The position numbers and the translations under genes are program-made. A stretch of DNA of 26,465 bases from a virus, in the IMG/VR virus record IMGVR_UViG_3300028829_000889, positions 1 to 26,465 of that record; one strand, 5' to 3'. The notes below the pieces were generated by a model, which saw nothing but the letters and a program-made list of their open reading frames with translations, did no database searches and was not told the DNA's origin. Positions 1 through 20,728 of the stretch are shown here, in pieces (positions within the stretch are counted from its first letter, which is position 1; the number at the start of each line of letters is the position of its first letter).

Positions 1-1967
1 CTTCTATTACTACGGGGTACTCTAATGTTTCTATAGGATACAGTGCTTTAGGTGGACAATCAGGGCATACTACTATTGCTATTGGCCATTCTGCTGTTTC
101 TGGTGGTTCTTACACAGGTAACAACAATGTTGGTATTGGTTATGGCGCACTCAGTGCTGCAACTAGTGCATATAATAGCGTAGCAATAGGTACAGAGGCT
201 TTAGACGATATTACTACAGGGAACAGCAACACTGCTGTAGGTTTTCATGCTGGTACAACACTAACTACCGGAACACAAAATGTTATGCTTGGTAGATACG
301 CAATGCGATATAGTACAATCGCAGGAAACAACACTGCTATTGGCACAAATGCAATGCGTAACATGTCTACAGGAACGCATAACATTGGAATAGGCTCAAG
401 CGTTGCTTCTAGTGCTGCAATTACTGGCAGCAACAATGTACTCTTAGGATATCAAACTGCTCATAAAATAACTAGCGGCAGTCATAACATTATGGCAGGA
501 AACCTAGCTGGTTTTGACTTAGAAGCTGGCTCATACAATGTGTTTTTAGGTTACAATTCTGGTTCAGATATAACATCAGGCTCAGACAATATTGCTATTG
601 GGCGCAATGCATTAGCTGATATAACTACTGGCGGTAATATGGTTGCTATTGGGCAAAATGCATTAGGTGATGCAACAACTAGTACAGCTAGTATGGTTGC
701 TATTGGCTACAGCGCAGGAAATTTTAATGCCTACGGCCTCTATAACGTTTCCATAGGCCAAACTGCAGGGACAAGATTTGGCCAAAATGGCAGCAATAAC
801 GTAGCCATTGGTAGAGAAGCGATGGGTTCAAACTCGCAGTCAGGGTATACGAACAGCTATAACGTAGTTGTTGGTTCTTATGCTATGCGAGCCCCAGGAG
901 CGTCAGGCAGCGCATCCCATAATACGATATTAGGTTACTACGCTGGAACTGCAATAACATCAGGAGATGGTAATACAATAACTGGTTCCAATGCTGGAAT
1001 GCGCATTACAACAGGTGGTTACAACGTAGGAACAGGCTCTGAGGCTTTAGCCTATGTTACTACAGCGGATAACAATGTTGCTATAGGTAATATGGCTGGG
1101 AAACAGATTACTACAGGTTCAGAAAACGTTGCAATTGGCTATCAAGCTTTAGATGCTCTGACCACTGGTACTGGTATTGTAGCTGTTGGTAGAAGTGCTG
1201 GTGGTGCTTATACAGGTTCAAACAATTTTGTCGCTATTGGACAATATTGTTTTCCTACTAGTGGAGGTATGAGTGAATCAGTAGGAATTGGTTATGGAGT
1301 TGGTTGGGGAATGACTTCTGGCGGCGCTAACGTTCTTATAGGTTTTTCTACAGCAATAGCAAACACAGGCGGCGGCTCTAATACATATGTAGGATATCGT
1401 GTTTCAGGTAATGCTAACGTTGCAGGGACTGGAAGTAACAACGTAGGAATAGGTTATAACGCTTTATACAACCAAACAAGCGGGTATACTAACACAGCAG
1501 TTGGCGTAAATGCTGGAAATAGCCTTACAACAGGCTCAAACAATACTATTATTGGATATGATGCAGATGCTACATCTGCAACAGTGAATAATGAAATTAC
1601 GTTAGGTAATAGTAGTATTTCTGTTCTCCGTTGCGCAACTCAATCAATTAATGCATTATCTGATGCCCGTGATAAAACAAACATAGCATCACTACAAGCT
1701 GGGCTTAATTTTGTAGAACACTTAAATCCAGTATCGTTTACTTGGAACATGCGTGATGGTGGAAAAGTTGGTATAGAAGACACTGGCTTTATTGCCCAAG
1801 ATTTACAGCAAGTACAGCAAGATACTGGAGTAAATATCCCCGGATTAGTCTATGATGAAAATCCAGAAAAACTAGAAGCCTCTTATGGTAGATTAATTCC
1901 AGTGTTAGTTCAGGCAATTAAAGACTTGTCTGCTAAAGTAAATGAGCTTGAGGCACAAATTAAATAA
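1..1967 (+). CDS. Tail fibre/spike with YadA-like repeats and C-terminal S74 chaperone (5' end cut off)
   Basis: The frame is open to the left edge (first whole codon at base 3), so the start lies outside; 654 residues are visible. An ATG at 285 is internal, because the same repeat pattern continues upstream of it. Most of the protein is a run of imperfect repeats of the type N-N-V-A-I-G-x-x-A-G/L, spaced by T-T-G-S or similar, as in the left-handed beta-roll heads of YadA-like trimeric proteins. The last ~100 residues are a peptidase S74 intramolecular chaperone: the motif SDARDKTNI (bases 1659-1685) contains the Ser-Lys pair used for self-cleavage, followed by F-x-W and a C-terminal coiled coil (LVQAIKDLSAKVNELEAQ). 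By family knowledge the chaperone trimerises the fibre and is then released. Role inferred: host-receptor recognition. The S74 call is firm; fibre versus spike is not resolved. Confidence 0.9.
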   Translation, partial: SITTGYSNVSIGYSALGGQSGHTTIAIGHSAVSGGSYTGNNNVGIGYGALSAATSAYNSVAIGTEALDDITTGNSNTAVGFHAGTTLTTGTQNVMLGRYAMRYSTIAGNNTAIGTNAMRNMSTGTHNIGIGSSVASSAAITGSNNVLLGYQTAHKITSGSHNIMAGNLAGFDLEAGSYNVFLGYNSGSDITSGSDNIAIGRNALADITTGGNMVAIGQNALGDATTSTASMVAIGYSAGNFNAYGLYNVSIGQTAGTRFGQNGSNNVAIGREAMGSNSQSGYTNSYNVVVGSYAMRAPGASGSASHNTILGYYAGTAITSGDGNTITGSNAGMRITTGGYNVGTGSEALAYVTTADNNVAIGNMAGKQITTGSENVAIGYQALDALTTGTGIVAVGRSAGGAYTGSNNFVAIGQYCFPTSGGMSESVGIGYGVGWGMTSGGANVLIGFSTAIANTGGGSNTYVGYRVSGNANVAGTGSNNVGIGYNALYNQTSGYTNTAVGVNAGNSLTTGSNNTIIGYDADATSATVNNEITLGNSSISVLRCATQSINALSDARDKTNIASLQAGLNFVEHLNPVSFTWNMRDGGKVGIEDTGFIAQDLQQVQQDTGVNIPGLVYDENPEKLEASYGRLIPVLVQAIKDLSAKVNELEAQIK

Positions 1968-1979
1968 GGAGAATATCTA

Positions 1980-2222
1980 ATGACTGAAGAAAATACAATT
2001 ACAGCCGAAGAAATTGCACAGCACTATAGTGCATGTATGGATAGCGTAAACTTAATCAACGCAGTTATTGCTACGCCTGATGATTACACAGATGATGAAA
2101 CTGTTTTGCAACGTAATGTAGAACACTTAGAAATCATGGTGCCACAAACTTATTGGACAACAGAAGATATGACACCTCTCAATGCTGCGATTACCGCTGG
2201 CAATGCTGCCATAGCAGGCTAA
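1980..2222 (+). CDS. Small acidic phage protein of unknown function (80 aa)
   Basis: A strong ribosome binding site, AAGGAG at 1966-1971, lies 8 bases before the ATG and overlaps the fibre gene's stop codon, so the two genes are very probably co-translated. The protein is acidic (starts MTEENTITAEEIAQHY), mostly helical by eye, with no cysteine pairs, membrane segment or motif that I recognise except a small alanine/glycine-rich C-terminus. Short proteins directly after the fibre gene are sometimes fibre-assembly chaperones. That is only positional inference here. Confidence 0.75.
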   Translation: MTEENTITAEEIAQHYSACMDSVNLINAVIATPDDYTDDETVLQRNVEHLEIMVPQTYWTTEDMTPLNAAITAGNAAIAG

Positions 2223-2241
2223 ATAAAAAGTGAGTAGATAA

Positions 2242-2448
2242 ATGAAACTAGAGCAGTCTGTAACCCCTGAACTTCGTGTGGCACTAGAACTAGAAGCACA
2301 CGAAAAAGAATGTGCAGTGCGTTACGCTGCTGTAGGTGAGAAACTAGAAGCACTAGACAAACGCATGTGGCGTTTAGAAGCAATGATAATGGGTAGCACT
2401 ATAATGGTAGTAGCTATGGTGGTTACAGTATTTATGGGAATTAATTAA
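2242..2448 (+). CDS. Holin-like small membrane protein (68 aa)
   Basis: Residues 1-46 form a charged amphipathic helix (EKECAVRYAAVGEKLEALDK followed by RMWRLE). Residues about 48-66 form one strongly hydrophobic segment (MIMGSTIMVVAMVVTVFMGI), and the protein ends right after it. A cytoplasmic coiled-coil helix followed by a C-terminal membrane segment is the architecture of XhlA-like holin accessory proteins and of some phage holins. The position among late genes after the tail fibre fits a lysis role. No endolysin or spanin is visible beside it, and the ribosome binding site is weak, so holin is an inference from topology. It could also be a membrane-associated virion component. Confidence 0.6.
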   Translation: MKLEQSVTPELRVALELEAHEKECAVRYAAVGEKLEALDKRMWRLEAMIMGSTIMVVAMVVTVFMGIN

Positions 2449-2449
2449 T

Positions 2450-4258
2450 ATGGCAACACTTACAACAAATCCAGAAGATGAAGTTGGTATAAATCCCCCA
2501 CCTCCTCCAGGAACTGGTGATAACCCAAGAGCTATTGATGAGTATATGGGTGAACAGGCTGTCAACCCCCTTATGCCACTACAGGGGATATACCAACCTG
2601 GCAAACAAACCGTCGGCACAAATGAAATTATTAAGTCTGATTCAGGGCAGGTTACAGGCACAATTCCTACGCCTACAACTCTTGCAGAAATTACACAAGC
2701 AGCTGGTCCTGTAGTAACCCCAGCCGCTGGCTATGATGCAGAAACTATAACTGACTCAGTTACAGGAGTTGACGTAACTAAGGGCGTTGTTTCAGACGAT
2801 GCGCAAGTAAAAGAACAACAAGGTAGTATCACTGAGAAAGCAAAAGCTGCACAAGGAGACCTTAGAGGAACTATAGACCCTTTAACTGGTCGTATGGTAA
2901 GCACAGAAGAAGAAGCCGTCGCTGCAACAGCTAATAAAGCATTCCTAGATACGTATAACGCAGAACAATCTGGCTTCGTAAGTGACGCGCAAGGTGCTAC
3001 TATGCAAGTAACACCTGATATGACCGTAGAAGGTCAGTTAGCTCGCCTATCTCAACAGTTTGCAGGTGGTCAAGTTCCTTCATGGGCAGCAGGAGCACTT
3101 CGTACCGCTAACGCACAGATGGCGGCTCGTGGCCTTTCAGCCTCATCTATGGCAGGTGCCGCAGTTACACAGGCAGCTATGGAAGCAGCCATTCCAATAG
3201 CCACACAAGATTCACAGACATATTATAAAACTGCAATGCAGATTATGTCTAACGAGCAGCAAGCTATGCTCGCGAATACTCAGAATAATATGAATGTTGA
3301 CTTAGCTAATACGTCAAATCGCCAGCAAATGGCCTTGGCTAAAATGCAAGTTAACGCGTCTTTAGCAGGACAAGAACTCAGCAACCAACAACAGGTTAAC
3401 ATCCTCAACGCTGAAAAATATTCTGAGGCAGCAAATATGACGTTCACACAAGAACAACAACGCGTATTTGCAAACTCTAAGATGGTGGAAACACTTAATC
3501 TTAATAATCTGTCCAACCTACAAACCGCCGCTATGGCTAATGCGGCTAGTCTGGCACAGATGGATATGGCGAATCTTAGTGCTCGTCAACAAGCGGCGGT
3601 GCAAAATGCACAATCGTTTATGCAAATGGATATGGCTAACCTATCCAATACACAACAAGGAGCAGTCTTAGAGCAACAAGCAAGACAACAAGCATTGCTT
3701 TCAGACCAAGCTTCCACTAATGCAGCAAGACAGTTCAACGCCACTTCACAAAATCAAGTTGACCAATTCTTTGCTAGCCTTGCTCAGGATATTAATAAGT
3801 ATAATGCTACAGCGGCTAACGCCTCTAACCAGTTTAATGCTGGGCAATCTAACGCTATGCAGCAATTTGCTTCAACTATGGCTAACCAAAGAGAGCAGTT
3901 TAATGCAGTTAATGCTTTATCTATTGAGCAAAGTAATGTACAATGGCGTCGTGAAGTTAATACTGCAAACACAGCTACGCAGAATGCAGCTAATCAAGCA
4001 AATGCTGCAAACTACCTAGCCATTTCAAATACAGCAATGAATAACATATGGCAACAGTTTCGTGATGAAGCTGATTATGCATATTCATCTGCAGAAAATG
4101 CATCAGACAGAACCTTTAACATGGCTATGGCAGTTCTAGAAGCTGATGTAAATAGAGAAAATCAAGAAAAATACCTAGACCAAGCCACGGCTTCATCAAT
4201 TGGCAGTTTTTTGACTACCATCGGTGTAAGCTATTTACAAGCAAAAAATCCAAAATAA
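2450..4258 (+). CDS. Large Gln/Asn/Ala-rich repeat protein, probable virion component (602 aa)
   Basis: It begins one base after the previous stop codon. The N-terminal ~75 residues are disordered-looking, with a run of prolines (INPPPPPGTGDNP). A middle part around residues 190-250 is alanine-rich (MAARGLSASSMAGAAVTQAA). From residue 258 to about 521 it is built of 22-residue repeats with Gln-Gln at positions 13-14 in most of the first copies and a recurring QMDMANLS. Composition is extremely rich in Q, N, A and M and nearly free of cysteine. The 22-residue period equals two hendecads, which predicts a long helical coiled coil. The place between the fibre and the very large virion-arm proteins suggests a structural or internal virion protein, possibly in the role of T7 gp14. 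I do not recognise a specific family. Confidence 0.8.
   Translation: MATLTTNPEDEVGINPPPPPGTGDNPRAIDEYMGEQAVNPLMPLQGIYQPGKQTVGTNEIIKSDSGQVTGTIPTPTTLAEITQAAGPVVTPAAGYDAETITDSVTGVDVTKGVVSDDAQVKEQQGSITEKAKAAQGDLRGTIDPLTGRMVSTEEEAVAATANKAFLDTYNAEQSGFVSDAQGATMQVTPDMTVEGQLARLSQQFAGGQVPSWAAGALRTANAQMAARGLSASSMAGAAVTQAAMEAAIPIATQDSQTYYKTAMQIMSNEQQAMLANTQNNMNVDLANTSNRQQMALAKMQVNASLAGQELSNQQQVNILNAEKYSEAANMTFTQEQQRVFANSKMVETLNLNNLSNLQTAAMANAASLAQMDMANLSARQQAAVQNAQSFMQMDMANLSNTQQGAVLEQQARQQALLSDQASTNAARQFNATSQNQVDQFFASLAQDINKYNATAANASNQFNAGQSNAMQQFASTMANQREQFNAVNALSIEQSNVQWRREVNTANTATQNAANQANAANYLAISNTAMNNIWQQFRDEADYAYSSAENASDRTFNMAMAVLEADVNRENQEKYLDQATASSIGSFLTTIGVSYLQAKNPK
3221..4012 (+). repeat. Twelve consecutive 22-residue (66-base) coding repeats
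   Basis: Cutting the 602-aa protein every 22 residues from residue 258 keeps the register for about 11-12 units without a gap. Units 1-4, 6 and 7 have Gln-Gln at positions 13-14. Units 6 and 7 share QMDMANLS at the same offset, and unit 5 has NLNNLS in its place. Later units (8-12) keep the length and the Q/N/A composition but lose the Gln-Gln pair. At DNA level the units have diverged, so this is an old protein repeat, not a recent tandem duplication. The period of 22 (2 x 11) is a hendecad pattern, distinct from the heptad of ordinary coiled coils. Confidence 0.75.
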
Positions 4259-12543: not shown

Positions 12544-14472
12544 TCACCCTGCTGAAATATCTACAATTTCACACACACCTGCGGTACACGCTAATTCACG
12601 CCCACCTGATGTAGTATCTTCTTTCTCAAAGTCCTGTAGCTTAGACCATTCTACCTTCTTAGGCATTTTAGTCAAGAACTCTTTGTATTGCACCTCATCA
12701 ATGTCTTGATAGGGTGCTTGCTGGTAGGTGTGCTCACTAAAGGGTAGAAAGCTGATGCCACTAACCTCATCAAAATGCTCGTACACCCAAGCACCTACGT
12801 CCATCCATTCCGATTCCTTAACCGAAATTGTCACGCTAGGCTTATGTTCGCACCAATGGCGCTGATATGTTAGCCACAGTTCAAGCTGTTCAATGGCAGT
12901 CATAGCAGTACGTGTCACCGCACCTTGTGGTGATTTCATAGGAAAGCTAAACACTGTGGTGCTGTCAGGCTTCATTACATCAGGCTCTGCAGGGATACCC
13001 TCAGATATTAGGAACTGTGTGAGCGGGTCTTTGTTGTCACCACGCACAGTACGAATGTAATAAGGATTGTGCCTTGCATGAATGCCGCTGGCAGCGTCTG
13101 TAAGTTGGGATACAGTACCACTAGGCTTCACACATGTAACGGCTGTGGATTGCGGAATGCCCAGCTTTTTAGCGAGTGCTTCATTTGTTTGTACGGAAAC
13201 ATCACGTAGCATTTCAAGCGTCACTTCTAGCTTATTACCCGCTGTAGCAGTTAGTGTGCTATCCATGATGCCAGTAAGTGACACGCCAAGCAATCTTTCT
13301 TCTTCCGTATTTTTCTTCCACACATGGCGAAGATACTTAAAGTTAGTCAATGTAGACTGGAATGTACCAAGAATAGTAGCAAGACGTACCTTGTTCTTCA
13401 ATACATCAATCGTATCATTCTCACGTACCACTACCTCTGACAGATTACAAAACTGGTATGGACGCAAGATAATCTCACTGCAAGGGTTGCAGCCGAAGTC
13501 ATGGTTTATCTCACGCCTACCATTTTTAGCGGCTTGCTTAATTGCAGACTGGCGATTAAAGATACCGCGTTCACCTGACTTACTGTCGTACAGTGACAGC
13601 CACTCACGCATGAACGTACCCATCTCAGGCTTAGTCTTATAAGCTACTGAATTGTTAGCCAGCGCACGTTGACCCTCATTCTCCCACCATTGACCTGACT
13701 TGGCGTGTGCCATCTGGTCATCATTAAGGTTAGATAATGAAATCAATGCGCTGCGGCGTACACCGCCCACAACTACCACTTCACCAATCTTACACATGAT
13801 GTCGTGACATTCGATTGGGTATAACCGGCGCCCTGCGGCACCTTTAAATTTCTGTACAACGAACTCAAACAGCTCAACCAGTGGCTGTGGGCCTGACGCC
13901 CTACCACCAAATGTCTTGAGTCTCGCACCTGCAGGGCGTACATCAGACACATCCCACTTGGGAACTTGACCTGTGTACAGCATAGCAATTAGTTCTTTAA
14001 GAGACTTTGCCCATCCAGGACGGCTGTCGCCAACCTTAATTACTGTGTCTGTTGTGTGAAACTCTTCCGCTACGATGGGTAGCTTTTCGATACAGTGGCG
14101 TTCAACAGAGAAGCCTACCCCTGTACCGCACATAAGAATGTACATTGTCTCATCAAACGCACGCGGGCTATCCACTGGCACGTAAGAACAATTGTACCCA
14201 CCTACATGGCAACGGTCTAATGCAGGACCAGCAGTCATCAAGGCTCTCATGCTAGGCATAATGGCCTGACTTAGGACAGCTTCTTCTAGTTCTTTCTTCA
14301 GTGCGGGCTGTAGCTTATAACCATGTTTAAAATGCAAATGGTCAGCCATATAGTCAAAATATCTGGATACAGTCTCACTCCAAGTCTCACGACGCTGTTC
14401 GTCTTCTTTCCATCTCGCATAGCGAGACAATGCAATAAAATTCTGGTAGTCTGTAGGTAGTTGATTATTCAT
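12544..14472 (-). CDS. nrdJ: Class II (adenosylcobalamin-dependent) ribonucleotide reductase, monomeric RTPR type
   Basis: All catalytic residues can be placed: C95 (GGYNCSYVPVD) and C342 as the redox pair, C331 as the thiyl radical site and E333 in GCNPCSEIILRPYQFCNL. The 11-residue spacing C331-C342 equals that of C408-C419 in the Lactobacillus leichmannii enzyme. The C-terminal shuttle pair is C629/C634 (ACTAGVCEI), with the same 5-residue spacing as C731/C736. No glycyl-radical or diiron subunit is needed. It makes dNTPs for phage DNA synthesis and depends on host B12. At 642 aa it is about 100 residues shorter than the Lactobacillus enzyme. GAGG stands 8 bases before the ATG, and the start lies within the end of a 57-aa gene, so the two are coupled. 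Confidence 0.93.
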   Translation of the reverse strand: MNNQLPTDYQNFIALSRYARWKEDEQRRETWSETVSRYFDYMADHLHFKHGYKLQPALKKELEEAVLSQAIMPSMRALMTAGPALDRCHVGGYNCSYVPVDSPRAFDETMYILMCGTGVGFSVERHCIEKLPIVAEEFHTTDTVIKVGDSRPGWAKSLKELIAMLYTGQVPKWDVSDVRPAGARLKTFGGRASGPQPLVELFEFVVQKFKGAAGRRLYPIECHDIMCKIGEVVVVGGVRRSALISLSNLNDDQMAHAKSGQWWENEGQRALANNSVAYKTKPEMGTFMREWLSLYDSKSGERGIFNRQSAIKQAAKNGRREINHDFGCNPCSEIILRPYQFCNLSEVVVRENDTIDVLKNKVRLATILGTFQSTLTNFKYLRHVWKKNTEEERLLGVSLTGIMDSTLTATAGNKLEVTLEMLRDVSVQTNEALAKKLGIPQSTAVTCVKPSGTVSQLTDAASGIHARHNPYYIRTVRGDNKDPLTQFLISEGIPAEPDVMKPDSTTVFSFPMKSPQGAVTRTAMTAIEQLELWLTYQRHWCEHKPSVTISVKESEWMDVGAWVYEHFDEVSGISFLPFSEHTYQQAPYQDIDEVQYKEFLTKMPKKVEWSKLQDFEKEDTTSGGRELACTAGVCEIVDISAG

Positions 14473-14905: not shown

Positions 14906-15082
14906 TCAATCACAAGAGTCCATTCTAGACATGTAAGCGACGTACTTATTATCTTCTAGGGCTGTTTTAATAACTTTTGTATCGTAGCCCAATGATGGAT
15001 ACATTCTGTAGTACCTATCTATATCTTCTTGTAGTTCTGCAGAACTTTCGGCTTCTAACCTACGTCGAATATCTTTTGGCAT
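14906..15082 (-). CDS. Very small protein of unknown function (58 aa)
   Basis: An ATG at 15082, with AAAGG 9 bases upstream, opens 58 codons starting MPKDIRRRLEAESSAELQED and ending MSRMDSCD before a TGA at 14906-14908. It overlaps the methyltransferase's 3' end by 23 bases and ends 8 bases before the DUF3310 start, so it occupies the only space between them. The centre has several tyrosines (DRYYRMYPSLGY). No family recognised. Confidence 0.65.
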   Translation of the reverse strand: MPKDIRRRLEAESSAELQEDIDRYYRMYPSLGYDTKVIKTALEDNKYVAYMSRMDSCD

Positions 15083-16076
15083 TTTCTACTACCTTTATTG
15101 ATTCAGCAATTTGTTGTGCGATTTGAGGGACAATGGCATTGCCTAGTCCTTTAAGTCTGTCCACCCTTTTGGGTATCCCATTAGCCACTCTACCCACATT
15201 GGGTTCAGTTGTCCACCAGTTTTGCTTTGATTGTCCGTGTGTTGCACTGCTACATCCAGTGTGTCCCACGATACCTTGCCGTTGCGTATCCTGCCACCCT
15301 GATAGCCGCCCTTGTGGTCTCTGGTTGTCGGAGTCGGCCACATCCGTACTTGGTCCGCTAGATTCGCTCCAAACTTCAGGTCTGGATTCGTCTTGCTTAT
15401 CCTGCGACCCTTCTCGTCCAGTTGGCGTGGGCCGCCCGTCCCATCCGTGGTCCTTGGAGTTGCCCACATCTTCACGTATTCTGGATTCACCTGTTCCCGC
15501 AGATTGCTGGGACGCTTCCTGCCCTTCCTGTGACCCTCTTTCATTCTCTCCATGCTCTCCTTGGAGCGTAGAGGTAGATGGTCCATTGTGTTCGGTGTAG
15601 CCCACAATCCAGACTCTATCTCGCTTATGGGGTGCGCCGATGCCGCTAGCTGGAACAATAAACGTCCTTGTGGAGTAGCCTTCGGTTTCCAAGTCAAGGA
15701 GCACAGCGTCGAGTCCCAAGCTGATGTGACCATAAACGTTTTCGAAAACAACCCAAGAGGGTCTTTTGGATGCAACAATTTTGCGGATGTGCGGCCAGAT
15801 GTGACGTGGGTCTTCTTTGCCTTTCCGGTTTCCCGCTTGGGAGAAGGGCTGGCAAGGGTATCCTGCTGTGAGGATATCGCAGTCTGGAACAAGGTTGTCT
15901 GGGTCATTAGCTAATTCCTTTACATCTGATTTAATAGGTACGTTATTCCAGTGCTTCTTCAATATGTTCCTGCACCATTCCTCAATATCACAGAACATTA
16001 CTGGGGTTGATAATCCAGCCCACTCAAAACCAAGAGCGAACCCTCCAATACCACTACATAAATCTACGTGTCTCAC
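15060..16076 (-). CDS. DNA (cytosine-5) methyltransferase
   Basis: Motif I is DLCSGIGGF (residues 5-13). Motif IV is GYPCQPFS with catalytic C75. Motif VI is FENV (111-114). Motif VIII is HKRDRVWIVG (150-159), and motif X is GLGNAIVPQIAQQI (310-323). It transfers methyl from SAM to C5 of cytosine, presumably to protect phage DNA from host restriction. The start is GTG at 16076, with CGGAG 7 bases before it; motif I begins at once, so no later start is possible. Residues about 161-286, where the target recognition domain belongs, are low in complexity and rich in G, S, Q, E and D. That same DNA encodes a second frame (15143-15907). Confidence 0.92.
   Translation of the reverse strand: MRHVDLCSGIGGFALGFEWAGLSTPVMFCDIEEWCRNILKKHWNNVPIKSDVKELANDPDNLVPDCDILTAGYPCQPFSQAGNRKGKEDPRHIWPHIRKIVASKRPSWVVFENVYGHISLGLDAVLLDLETEGYSTRTFIVPASGIGAPHKRDRVWIVGYTEHNGPSTSTLQGEHGENERGSQEGQEASQQSAGTGESRIREDVGNSKDHGWDGRPTPTGREGSQDKQDESRPEVWSESSGPSTDVADSDNQRPQGRLSGWQDTQRQGIVGHTGCSSATHGQSKQNWWTTEPNVGRVANGIPKRVDRLKGLGNAIVPQIAQQIAESIKVVENAKRYST
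15143..15907 (-). CDS. Overlapping gene candidate inside the methyltransferase gene (254 aa)
   Basis: The frame is +1 relative to the methyltransferase on the same strand. Its ATG is preceded by AAAGGA at an 8-base spacing, an unusually good ribosome binding site. The product has N-terminal S/T/K-rich sequence, then CSLTWKPKATPQGRLLFQLA. Three W-x-T-P motifs follow at about 45-residue spacing (WATPNTMD at 102, WATPRTTDGTGG at 148, WPTPTTRDHKGG at 190), and the C-terminus is GGQLNPMWVEWLMGYPKGW. I recall this combination from proteins encoded within phage C5-methyltransferase genes. Tryptophan-rich, repeated and patterned sequence is not what a chance frame gives, whereas the methyltransferase frame here is low in complexity. 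Function is unknown. Confidence 0.6.
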   Translation of the reverse strand: MTQTTLFQTAISSQQDTLASPSPKRETGKAKKTHVTSGRTSAKLLHPKDPLGLFSKTFMVTSAWDSTLCSLTWKPKATPQGRLLFQLAASAHPISEIESGLWATPNTMDHLPLRSKESMERMKEGHRKGRKRPSNLREQVNPEYVKMWATPRTTDGTGGPRQLDEKGRRISKTNPDLKFGANLADQVRMWPTPTTRDHKGGYQGGRIRNGKVSWDTLDVAVQHTDNQSKTGGQLNPMWVEWLMGYPKGWTDLKD

Positions 16077-18607: not shown

Positions 18608-20728
18608 TCACATAGCTTGTTGGTAGTCAAGCGCAAAAGTATCCATGTCGAGCCAATTTTTTCCTACCTCGACATCGACTTCAAGTGGCACCACCCACTT
18701 GACATTGTAAAGTTCTTCAAAAGCCTTAGTCACACCAGTCATTGCGTCATATGTAATCCTAGCAACCAATGCCTCCTCACCAGGATACACGTCCAAAACT
18801 ATAGAGTCGTGGACCGTATTGATGACAATAGACTTACAGCTATTATCTCTAAGTGCACGGTGCAACGAAAGCATCGCCAACGGCACCAAGCAACCACCCG
18901 CCATACCTTGTACAGGGTAGTTCTTGATGGAGGGCGCTCCCGATGCAGCACCTGAAGAAAGGCGTCTAGCATCTGGAAAAGCAAATTGCTGACCAGTGAG
19001 CAAAGTAACACTATTGTGTGAAATAGCCTCAGTCTGCAAATCTTGATGCCATTTAGCAAGCTTTGGGTATTTCTCTGTAAACGCTTGGTAGTAAGCCATC
19101 TCGCTTGGTGTGCCGGTAGACCCTCCATAGAGAGGTTTGAACGTGTGCGCTTTGGCGTCTGTTCTTTCATCCTTGGTAACTTCAGCTTCTGGCTTATTAA
19201 AGATAACTGACGCAGTATACTTGTGAACATCAACACCATCTAAAATATCCTTTATCATAGCATCATCACCGCTCATCTGCGCGGCAACACGGAACTCTAG
19301 CTGACTGTAATCAGCCTGTAAAATTGTACCGTTGTCAAACCTAGATATAACAACACGGCGCACTGGGAACGTGTTACCCCGTGGCTGGTTCTGAAAGTTA
19401 GGGTCAGATGAAGACAGGCGAGTGGTACGAGTAATACACTGGTTAAACTTGGGGTGTAGGATGCCGTTAGGCTTCACGTTACGGGCTATACCACCCACAA
19501 AGCTAGAAAGATACACCTCGACTGCGTTGAGCCGTACAGCGGCCTTTAAGAAGGTTTCTGCACTTTCGTTACCCTTGTGAACAGCGGCCTTTAACAGGCG
19601 AAGCAAAGTGGTTTTATCTGTAGAAAAACCGCTGGCAGATACATCCAGCACACCTTGTGGATTCATTGTGAGTCCACCGATTTTAGGTAGTGGCTCCTGT
19701 ATGTATCCTTCTCCAGCACAAGTTCTACACTTAGTGGGTTTCTTCCATAGCTCGCCATTAACCTTAGTTTTCCAGAACTCTCCCTTACCTAAGCATTGGC
19801 GGCAATGCACAGCACGTGTTTTATATATTCTGGTAGTCATTTTTTTGACAGTGGCAGCAAACTGTGCAGTGCTCATCTGTGGACGATGCAGGGGCTTGCC
19901 CTTATCGTTCAGTCCAATATTAAATATCTCCGCCCATTTCTTTTTGTCGGTGATACGGCGTGAATAGATAAGTTCACTCATCTGTGCCGGTGATGCAAAG
20001 TTGACAGGGCGGTCGCCCATAACCTCATGGCACACATCCTCAAGCTTTATCTGTAGCTCAGAGCGTTCAATCTGGTAGTCAGAGCGAACCTTGTGAAGTT
20101 CTGTGAAGTCAATCTTGATTCCATTCTGTTCTAGCGTAGCCAACACAGGCAGGAAGTTGTTCATAAGCTTCAGGTGTTTACGAAGCGGTGCATTTCTGTC
20201 CTCAGAGTATAGCTTACGTTGTGCATAAAATAGCTCACGTGTGGACACAACATCAGCGATGCCGTATTCCTCAACAATATCCTTTGGCATCTTGTCAAAG
20301 CCTATACCACTACGGATGTACTCCTCAATCAAGTCGCCCTTCTTTAAGGATACCTTGCGTCTGGTACAGCTATCTGCCAAGCTTACGCCCCAGTTCTGGC
20401 AGCGCAATAGCAGATATTCACCAATCATGGTGTCATACACATCACCGTCATACTGAAAGCCAGACTCCCATAGCCACACCAAATCAAACTTAATGTTGTG
20501 GCCGATAAGCAGGGTAGTCTTATCTAAAGCATTCTGTACATCATTGTGAACTTCACGTGTGTCAATGGTTTCTGTGTCATGGTGAAACCAACGGAACACC
20601 GGCTCAGCATCCTCAATGGCATACTGTACGGATACAAGCTTGTTGTCCTTGTGAAACGGTGAAGGGTCGGTACGTTTAGTCTCAGGGTTCTTTTGAAACA
20701 TTGTTTCAACATCAAGTGTAGTAATCAT
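18608..20728 (-). CDS. polA: Family A DNA polymerase with DnaJ-type zinc finger insert
   Basis: Exonuclease domain: Exo I LDVET (D6, E8), Exo II GHNIKFD (N78, D82), Exo III YGIAD (Y155, D159). Residues 309-341 hold CRQCLGKGEF and CRTCAGEGY, a DnaJ-like zinc finger. Polymerase motif A is ILQADYSQLEFR (D473), motif B is R522-K526-F530-Y534 and motif C is VHDS (H640, D641). The residue equivalent to E. coli Pol I 762 is Phe (F530). This domain order is, to my knowledge, the mark of HMO-2011-type marine phages. It replicates phage DNA with the primase and helicase upstream. GAGGTG stands 4 bases before the ATG. The start overlaps the previous stop as ATGA. Confidence 0.95.
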   Translation of the reverse strand: MITTLDVETMFQKNPETKRTDPSPFHKDNKLVSVQYAIEDAEPVFRWFHHDTETIDTREVHNDVQNALDKTTLLIGHNIKFDLVWLWESGFQYDGDVYDTMIGEYLLLRCQNWGVSLADSCTRRKVSLKKGDLIEEYIRSGIGFDKMPKDIVEEYGIADVVSTRELFYAQRKLYSEDRNAPLRKHLKLMNNFLPVLATLEQNGIKIDFTELHKVRSDYQIERSELQIKLEDVCHEVMGDRPVNFASPAQMSELIYSRRITDKKKWAEIFNIGLNDKGKPLHRPQMSTAQFAATVKKMTTRIYKTRAVHCRQCLGKGEFWKTKVNGELWKKPTKCRTCAGEGYIQEPLPKIGGLTMNPQGVLDVSASGFSTDKTTLLRLLKAAVHKGNESAETFLKAAVRLNAVEVYLSSFVGGIARNVKPNGILHPKFNQCITRTTRLSSSDPNFQNQPRGNTFPVRRVVISRFDNGTILQADYSQLEFRVAAQMSGDDAMIKDILDGVDVHKYTASVIFNKPEAEVTKDERTDAKAHTFKPLYGGSTGTPSEMAYYQAFTEKYPKLAKWHQDLQTEAISHNSVTLLTGQQFAFPDARRLSSGAASGAPSIKNYPVQGMAGGCLVPLAMLSLHRALRDNSCKSIVINTVHDSIVLDVYPGEEALVARITYDAMTGVTKAFEELYNVKWVVPLEVDVEVGKNWLDMDTFALDYQQAM

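Follow-up and report, generated by a model that had tools for sequence, protein, structure and literature searches.

M.EcoHK31I, a C5-cytosine DNA methyltransferase with the recognition site YGGCCR, reportedly has its small subunit encoded in an alternative reading frame inside the gene for the large one. The enzyme has been called naturally split (PMC3439449), and motifs I–VIII and X and the predicted recognition domain have been assigned to its large subunit, and only motif IX to the small one (PMC3404938). M.AquI is described as two polypeptides, with the break in the variable region that separates motifs VIII and IX (PMC3404938). The C5 methyltransferases of Bacillus phages such as SPR, phi3T, rho11 and H2 are presented as carrying several recognition domains in tandem (PMC8936443). 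Here we describe a gene pair, alpha and beta, in 26,465 nucleotides (nt) of viral DNA (IMG/VR record IMGVR_UViG_3300028829_000889, positions 1–26,465; this whole stretch is called the window). Alpha is a C5-methylase gene, and beta is a 254-codon frame nested within it in the +1 frame.

Judged from their sequences, alpha and beta are very probably two subunits of one C5-cytosine DNA methyltransferase specified by a single stretch of DNA, with beta as the half that holds target recognition and motif IX. The split and nested plan is known in kind. As in M.EcoHK31I, motifs I–VIII and X lie in alpha and a motif-IX-like end in a small nested chain, a likeness of plan; the difference is that the region between motifs VIII and IX is here an array of exchangeable cassettes. 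The pair may work like M.EcoHK31I, but we do not file it in that family because the recognition region is placed differently and the sequences were not compared. Compared with M.AquI, the window locus keeps motif X in alpha, the first chain, whose second two thirds are mostly overlapped by beta; the closest likeness to M.AquI is seen in two other loci (L189 and L207, below), where motif X is in the second chain. In the multispecific Bacillus phage methylases the array is in frame within a single chain, whereas here it occupies the other frame and would belong to a second protein. One SPbeta-like methylase (L411) gave no match to the beta model and had no long +1 run. Literature searches, judged by title and the start of the abstract among open-licence papers, yielded no paper that we recognized as dealing with a nested cassette array in these methylases, and we have not found described either this array or the placement of the recognition region in the small subunit.

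Selection on both reading frames

The initial annotation of this DNA had proposed a 254-codon gene in the +1 frame of the methyltransferase, preceded by AAAGGA. Both are present: the frame has an ATG start and lies within a 338-residue open reading frame (ORF), and the hexamer stands 8 bases before the ATG (Table 1). When the synonymous codons of alpha were re-dealt, with protein and codon usage left unchanged, 1 of 5000 trials at the window locus recovered a 255-codon +1 run; among 49 representative loci, the observed +1 run was longer than all 300 recodings in 43. The reverse test is the stronger of the two. The alpha frame is open across the beta repeat region in all 48 of the loci that could be parsed (one of the 49 was unparseable), compared with 1.12 of 48 expected when beta is recoded synonymously. 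Hand-chosen canonical single-chain methylases served as controls (Dcm, 4 of 27 loci, with a fifth used for the pair comparison, and 6 of 338 phage records). The +1 runs of 9 of these 11 fall within the recoding range, being reached by at least 16 of 300 recodings. The other two, L409 (Streptococcus phage Javan246) and L410 (Weissella phage PWc), have +1 runs of 189 and 174 codons, longer than in any of the 300 recodings, so that openness alone is no proof of a gene. These two runs span motifs IV–VIII.

Substitution patterns distinguish the two frames. In the +1 relation, the wobble base of alpha is the second codon base of beta, and the wobble base of beta is the first codon base of alpha. Rates were taken from 19 pairs of relatives; an earlier set of 36 pairs, which held near-duplicates, was set aside. 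Upstream of beta, alpha positions 1, 2 and 3 differ at 0.169, 0.093 and 0.393. Across beta residues 106–195 the corresponding values are 0.31–0.43, 0.09–0.18 and 0.05–0.09, so the freest position is the beta wobble base and the alpha wobble base is nearly frozen. The beta wobble base is again the freest at residues 226–240 (0.289), and both frames are constrained in the N-terminal part of beta. No such reversal occurs in three pairs of canonical single-chain methylases, in which the third position is highest in every region (0.57–0.80). These positional rates agree with the initial proposal that selection acts mainly on the nested frame in the middle of the gene and on both frames elsewhere.

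The start of beta is marked as well. A Shine-Dalgarno match of at least 5 bases precedes its first ATG or GTG in 24 of 49 loci, compared with 77 of the 1625 remaining ATG/GTG codons of these genes; if 4 bases suffice, the counts are 34 of 49 and 243 of 1625. Taken as sequence evidence, these patterns indicate that beta is a real gene under its own selection.

Motif division and cassette exchange

Alpha matches PF00145 (E 2.2e-41) over profile positions 2–183 of 324 only, and TIGR00675 is also matched. P74, C75, Q76, E112, R152 and R154 are invariant in 78 alphas, the S-adenosylmethionine-binding and catalytic motifs I–VIII are present, and G312 and N313 of motif X are conserved in at least 90% of the 78 sequences. 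The recognition domain and motif IX that PF00145 requires in the same chain are absent from alpha. In the AlphaFold2 model, residues 1–160 are mostly confident and the C-terminal helix is confident; between them, residues 171–300 have a mean predicted local distance difference test (pLDDT) score of 36–54 per ten-residue block. The model aligns with M.HhaI over 196 residues (Z 23.5, root-mean-square deviation 2.7). Together, the distribution of confidence and the M.HhaI match suggest that alpha is a catalytic domain with a linker replacing the recognition domain and motif IX, and that it would be the large subunit, with motifs I–VIII and X and no motif IX. A relationship in which alpha and beta are duplicates of each other was rejected on comparison.

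The C-terminal end of beta resembles the missing motif. It reads LNPMWVEWLMGYPKGW, with the consensus LNPxWVEWLMGxPxGW, and motif IX of Escherichia coli Dcm reads LTPRECARLMGF. All 94 betas of our alignment (A3) share residues L234, N235, P236 and M243, partly by choice, as about half of these were found by a pattern holding those letters. A local profile comparison of the beta end with canonical motif IX gave P 2.9e-4 and a probability of 41%, and betas found through alpha show end variants, such as LSPLFVEEMMGFPKNWT, that are nearer to the canonical motif. A weak PADLOC row (E 0.017) places beta residues 183–248 on positions 292–354 of 362, the C-terminal part, of an ‘orphan methyltransferase’ model. 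In two further loci, from Brevibacillus (L189, 2238–3522) and a Bacillota metagenome-assembled genome (MAG; L207, 4760–6059), alpha stops after motif VIII, at 176–177 codons, and the beta frame continues through the repeats, motif IX and motif X, with overlaps of 317 and 338 nt. Each appears to be a plain split C5 methylase with an overlapping start, and they offer the clearest evidence on which half is which. The profile evidence for reading the beta end as motif IX is modest; its position and the architecture of L189 and L207 add weight.

A search of the 254-residue product against phage proteins, suggested in the initial annotation, returned phrog_1008 (E 3e-34), which all 94 A3 betas match too. 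The label of this cluster is ‘DNA methyltransferase’, yet no catalytic motif is seen in beta. The family had been thought possibly uncharacterized. It is already represented in PHROGs by phrog_1008, and some phage records annotate both frames; the description stands in so far as phrog_1008 is a labelled sequence cluster whose listing is silent on nesting, motif IX and cassettes. The resemblance to motif IX, the M.EcoHK31I precedent and the cassette nature of the W-x-T-P units go beyond what was first noted.

W-x-T-P motifs occur at beta residues 102, 148 and 190, a spacing of 46 and 42 residues that is in line with the interval of about 45 first reported. They define three units of 46, 42 and 44 residues between the N-terminal domain and the motif-IX-like end. 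A simple parser identified 365 tandem W-x-T-P units in 125 of 129 non-redundant betas, with 1–7 per protein and a median length of 38 residues (interquartile range 32–44, last units excluded). The units form 47 clusters of at least two members, with 104 singletons left over, and every one of the 14 largest listed clusters is found at two or more array positions. There are 59 module pairs at least 60% identical that come from loci whose alpha catalytic domains are less than 40% identical, 43 of them at different positions (alpha identity is known for 1060 of 1505 module pairs).

Mosaicism was measured against the alpha catalytic domain; an earlier measure based on backbone identity was dropped for misplaced segments. 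Loci were compared by their best 30-residue match in 7260 pairs of 150 loci, with too-short segments dropped. The resulting pair counts are approximate, the cassette region being longer than the N-terminal segment and the parser misplacing some N-terminal segments: among the 1653 pairs with alpha identity below 0.45, a 70% match is reached by cassettes in 59 pairs and by the N-terminal domain in 1, and among the 439 pairs with alpha identity of at least 0.65, 182 have a cassette in common at 70% or better and 75 keep the N-terminal domain at 70% or better yet share no cassette stretch of 45%. Exchange is visible directly in the DNA of L329 and L338: the 480 bases that lead to the first cassette are 90.6% identical and the 110 bases starting at the array end 90.9%, and the cassettes between these conserved flanks differ. 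The W-x-T-P units appear as cassettes of roughly 30–45 residues that draw on a common pool and change order and place even among close relatives.

As in the multispecific Bacillus phage methylases, the cassettes probably act as exchangeable DNA-recognition units. In the mechanism that we propose, the alpha frame would give the S-adenosylmethionine-binding and catalytic domain with motifs I–VIII and X. Beta, initiated inside alpha in the +1 frame from its own ribosome site, would supply an N-terminal domain, for which docking is suggested, three target-recognition cassettes and motif IX. The two chains would then assemble, beta filling the gap left by the linker of alpha. Each cassette probably reads one short DNA target, and multi-cassette arrays would be multispecific. 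For the phage, the enzyme would serve as an orphan methylase that counters restriction, with cassette exchange changing its targets. The chances seem evenly balanced for the broader proposal that a catalytic gene is read straight through an out-of-frame cassette array that stores DNA specificity, whose units are gained, lost, reordered and swapped to give a quickly retargetable, multispecific two-subunit methylase.

Alternatives to a two-subunit enzyme

Several results weigh against a two-subunit enzyme with recognition in beta. The predicted recognition domain of M.EcoHK31I is assigned to its large subunit (PMC3404938), whereas here the VIII–IX region is constrained in the beta frame. Neither Pfam nor NCBIfam has a family that beta matches, and both collections are silent on motif IX even in the betas of L189 and L207, which carry IX and X in one chain. 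A PDB sequence search gave no noteworthy match for beta (one unrelated row, E 0.21), and a PDB profile search with its last 32 residues returned two unrelated weak rows and no methylase. The structure model of beta is weak (pLDDT 67, predicted template modelling score 0.38) and led to no convincing fold (best E 0.65 with Foldseek; best Z 3.2 with VIA-align, over 42 residues; methylases absent from the matches listed), negatives that say little because of the pLDDT of 67. Constraint on the N-terminal part is uneven, with alpha wobble rates of 0.19–0.30 in beta residues 1–45, 0.10–0.16 in residues 46–90 and 0.25 in residues 91–105. Finally, the +1 frame of one canonical methylase matches the beta model N-terminally (E 1e-5), and some of the N-terminal likeness between distant betas appears to mirror conserved alpha motifs.

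The cassettes themselves could have another function. Beta may be a partner subunit in which the W-x-T-P units are structural or protein-binding repeats and not DNA-recognition units, as its profile resembles no known recognition domain by sequence and, to our knowledge, no target is known for any member of the family. We regard this as unlikely, though deserving of serious weight: the cassettes sit exactly between motifs VIII and IX, which is the place of the recognition domain in C5 methylases, and they are exchanged between conserved flanks, as recognition domains are.

It is quite improbable that beta is no separate protein and that a programmed +1 frameshift after motif VIII joins the catalytic part of alpha to the cassettes and motif IX. 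Exactly such a fused chain is seen in L125, which is one base shorter over the match than its sister copies L122–L124 (contigs of one isolate) and has the catalytic half, cassettes and motif IX in one frame; this fusion is possibly a sequencing error. A frameshift does not account for selection on beta upstream of the shift, where the alpha wobble rate falls to 0.10–0.16 (residues 46–90) compared with 0.39 upstream of beta, or for the enrichment of Shine-Dalgarno sequences at the beta start. Moreover, alpha ends after motif VIII in L189 and L207, and the fused chain would be without motif X.

The absence of a known fold and an N-terminal domain unlike recognized domains would also suit an independent regulator or anti-restriction protein that merely shares methylase DNA. 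This is highly improbable, given that beta was not seen apart from alpha in the beta-, beta-end- and cassette-anchored samples described below (an extra beta ORF in L343 follows a complete pair), that the motif-IX-like end absent from alpha is in beta, and that motif X joins beta in L189 and L207. There is virtually no chance that the nested frame is untranslated and mirrors the conservation of alpha, since, despite the two of 11 canonical methylases with unusually long +1 runs and the one whose match to the beta model mirrors motif IV, it is the alpha frame that lacks constraint over the cassettes, and these show conservation when read in the beta frame and have moved from gene to gene.

The initial annotation had considered a partner, a regulator or an anti-restriction factor as the role of the nested product. 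The role of partner is retained, as the motif IX and recognition half of a two-subunit methylase, and a separate regulator is disfavoured. An anti-restriction role seems likely for the enzyme as a whole. Among the families listed for 77 neighbouring ORFs of bacterial loci (of 131 candidates), other DNA methylases are represented by PF01555 in 5 and PF02086 in 4, alongside phage replication genes, IstB/DnaA-like ones among them, and 3 ORFs with ResIII helicase-type matches. Neighbours that are other methylases or phage replication genes fit an orphan, anti-restriction role; the families seen comprise 25 of 87 from PADLOC and 25 of 41 from Pfam, which leaves room for a restriction enzyme nearby.

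Distribution, locus map and consequences

The nested gene is widespread, as had been suspected. With beta as query, tblastn confirmed 588 viral stretches and also found 157 phage records (E 0.01) and 14 plasmids (E 0.001), and bacterial loci of many phyla were found. Each scan keeps the 80 nearest matches, so that more distant methylases lie outside the sample, and contigs recur between scans. In each of four scans, anchored on beta, its end, one cassette or alpha, all 80 kept loci have beta in the +1 frame of alpha. This holds for all 83 loci of the beta-anchored set, in which both frames stay open as far as the contigs extend, and beta is the long +1 frame in all 13 phage and plasmid loci, coliphage N15 gene 58 among them. 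In the N15 record (AF064539; L084, 1851–2576), alpha alone is annotated and the 242-codon beta frame inside gene 58 is unannotated. A bacterial-genome scan with the beta-end pattern (LNPx..., confirmed by tblastn) found beta overlapping alpha in +1 in 80 of 80 kept loci, which include repeats from one genome (L157–L161, L175–L177). The titles of these loci name Bacillota, Bacteroidetes, Acidobacteria, Proteobacteria, Chloroflexi, Spirochaetes, Verrucomicrobia and others, with many MAGs.

Scans anchored elsewhere agree. Single alpha queries gave 45 loci, all with a beta match; L095–L110 among them are contigs of earlier sets and L117 is N15 again. A generic, alpha-anchored scan with C5 motifs found beta in +1 in 80 of 80 kept loci (79 by script, L343 by inspection). 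With one cassette type alone, at least 589 stretches were confirmed, and the cassette is in the +1 frame of alpha in all 80 kept. No locus with an intact alpha of this type lacks beta among the sampled loci; a nested frame broken beside an intact methyltransferase, set beforehand as the test of the proposal, was not seen in them.

In a few irregular loci, alpha or both frames are disturbed, which may reflect sequencing errors. They include at least 4 of the 80 bacterial loci, with L141 and L179 interrupted and L189 and L207 of the other plan described above; L304 and L360 of the alpha-anchored scan, where end parts have moved between frames; and L125, L128 and L136, whose frames are broken or joined unusually. 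L136 and L137 (alpha ORFs 1474–3321 and 1486–3696) have an intein-like insert within motif IV, between the proline and the CQPF block, and their betas begin close to the insert end. The inserts gave weak NCBIfam rows, to an intein-containing RtcB family for L136 (E 8e-4) and to a replication factor C family for L137 (E 4e-6), the latter family also intein-bearing. Downstream of alpha, L136 has a motif-IX-like block in the alpha frame, and motif X in a third frame past another ORF. L343 (911–1952) contains a second beta-like ORF directly after the alpha/beta pair.

Of the 60 phage rows listed, 13 carry two features under the beta match (3 records are unannotated and one row is featureless), so some annotators already call both frames. 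Beta is labelled ‘Mte8-like’ in two K1-type coliphage records.

The features of the window locus are collected in Table 1. The methylase is flanked by a B12-type ribonucleotide reductase gene (12544–14472) and, several genes on, by a family A DNA polymerase gene (18608–20728). Pfam matches among ten other window ORFs include B12-type ribonucleotide reductase, DUF3310 and family A DNA polymerase.

Table 1. Features of the alpha/beta locus, in window coordinates
Feature	Position	Strand	Details and evidence
Alpha, predicted C5-cytosine DNA methyltransferase catalytic subunit, motifs I–VIII and X	15060..16076	-	GTG start, 338 residues; PF00145, TIGR00675, M.HhaI fold match
Beta, putative nested subunit in the +1 frame of alpha	15143..15907	-	ATG start, 254 residues; frame constraint, phrog_1008
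AAAGGA, Shine-Dalgarno-like, 8 bases 5' of the beta ATG	15916..15921	-	Sequence; start-site enrichment over 49 loci
Alpha linker (predicted), residues 165–303; beta cassettes in its other frame	15168..15584	-	Low-confidence AlphaFold2 prediction; positional rates
Beta N-terminal domain, residues 1–101, predicted helices and hairpin; overprints alpha motifs IV–VIII	15605..15907	-	Positional rates, structure model
Beta cassette 1, residues 102–147, WATPNTMD...NLREQV type	15467..15604	-	Cassette parsing and cassette-anchored scan
Beta cassette 2, residues 148–189, WATPRTTDGTGG type	15341..15466	-	Cassette parsing
Beta cassette 3, residues 190–233, WPTPTTRDHKGGYQGG type	15209..15340	-	Cassette parsing
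Beta motif-IX-like end, residues 234–254, LNPMWVEWLMGYPKGWTDLKD	15146..15208	-	Conservation in 94 betas; profile match to canonical motif IX
Alpha motif X, residues 310–318, GLGNAIVPQ	15123..15149	-	Conservation in 78 sequences; confident C-terminal helix

If the two-subunit reading is true, the annotation of a lone ‘DNA methyltransferase’ covers only half an enzyme in many phages and prophages, and cloning such genes without the nested frame would yield enzymes that are inactive or wrong. A code that links short peptide modules to DNA targets could become readable from the cassettes. If the cassette-array reading is true, few long same-strand overlaps known from prokaryotes and their viruses would be as widespread as the alpha/beta pair, and the family would be a natural and well-sampled example of recombination constrained by two frames at once. 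It would be useful for the open question of how overlapping genes originate and continue to evolve. For the phages themselves, cassette exchange may be a means of altering which DNA sites are protected.
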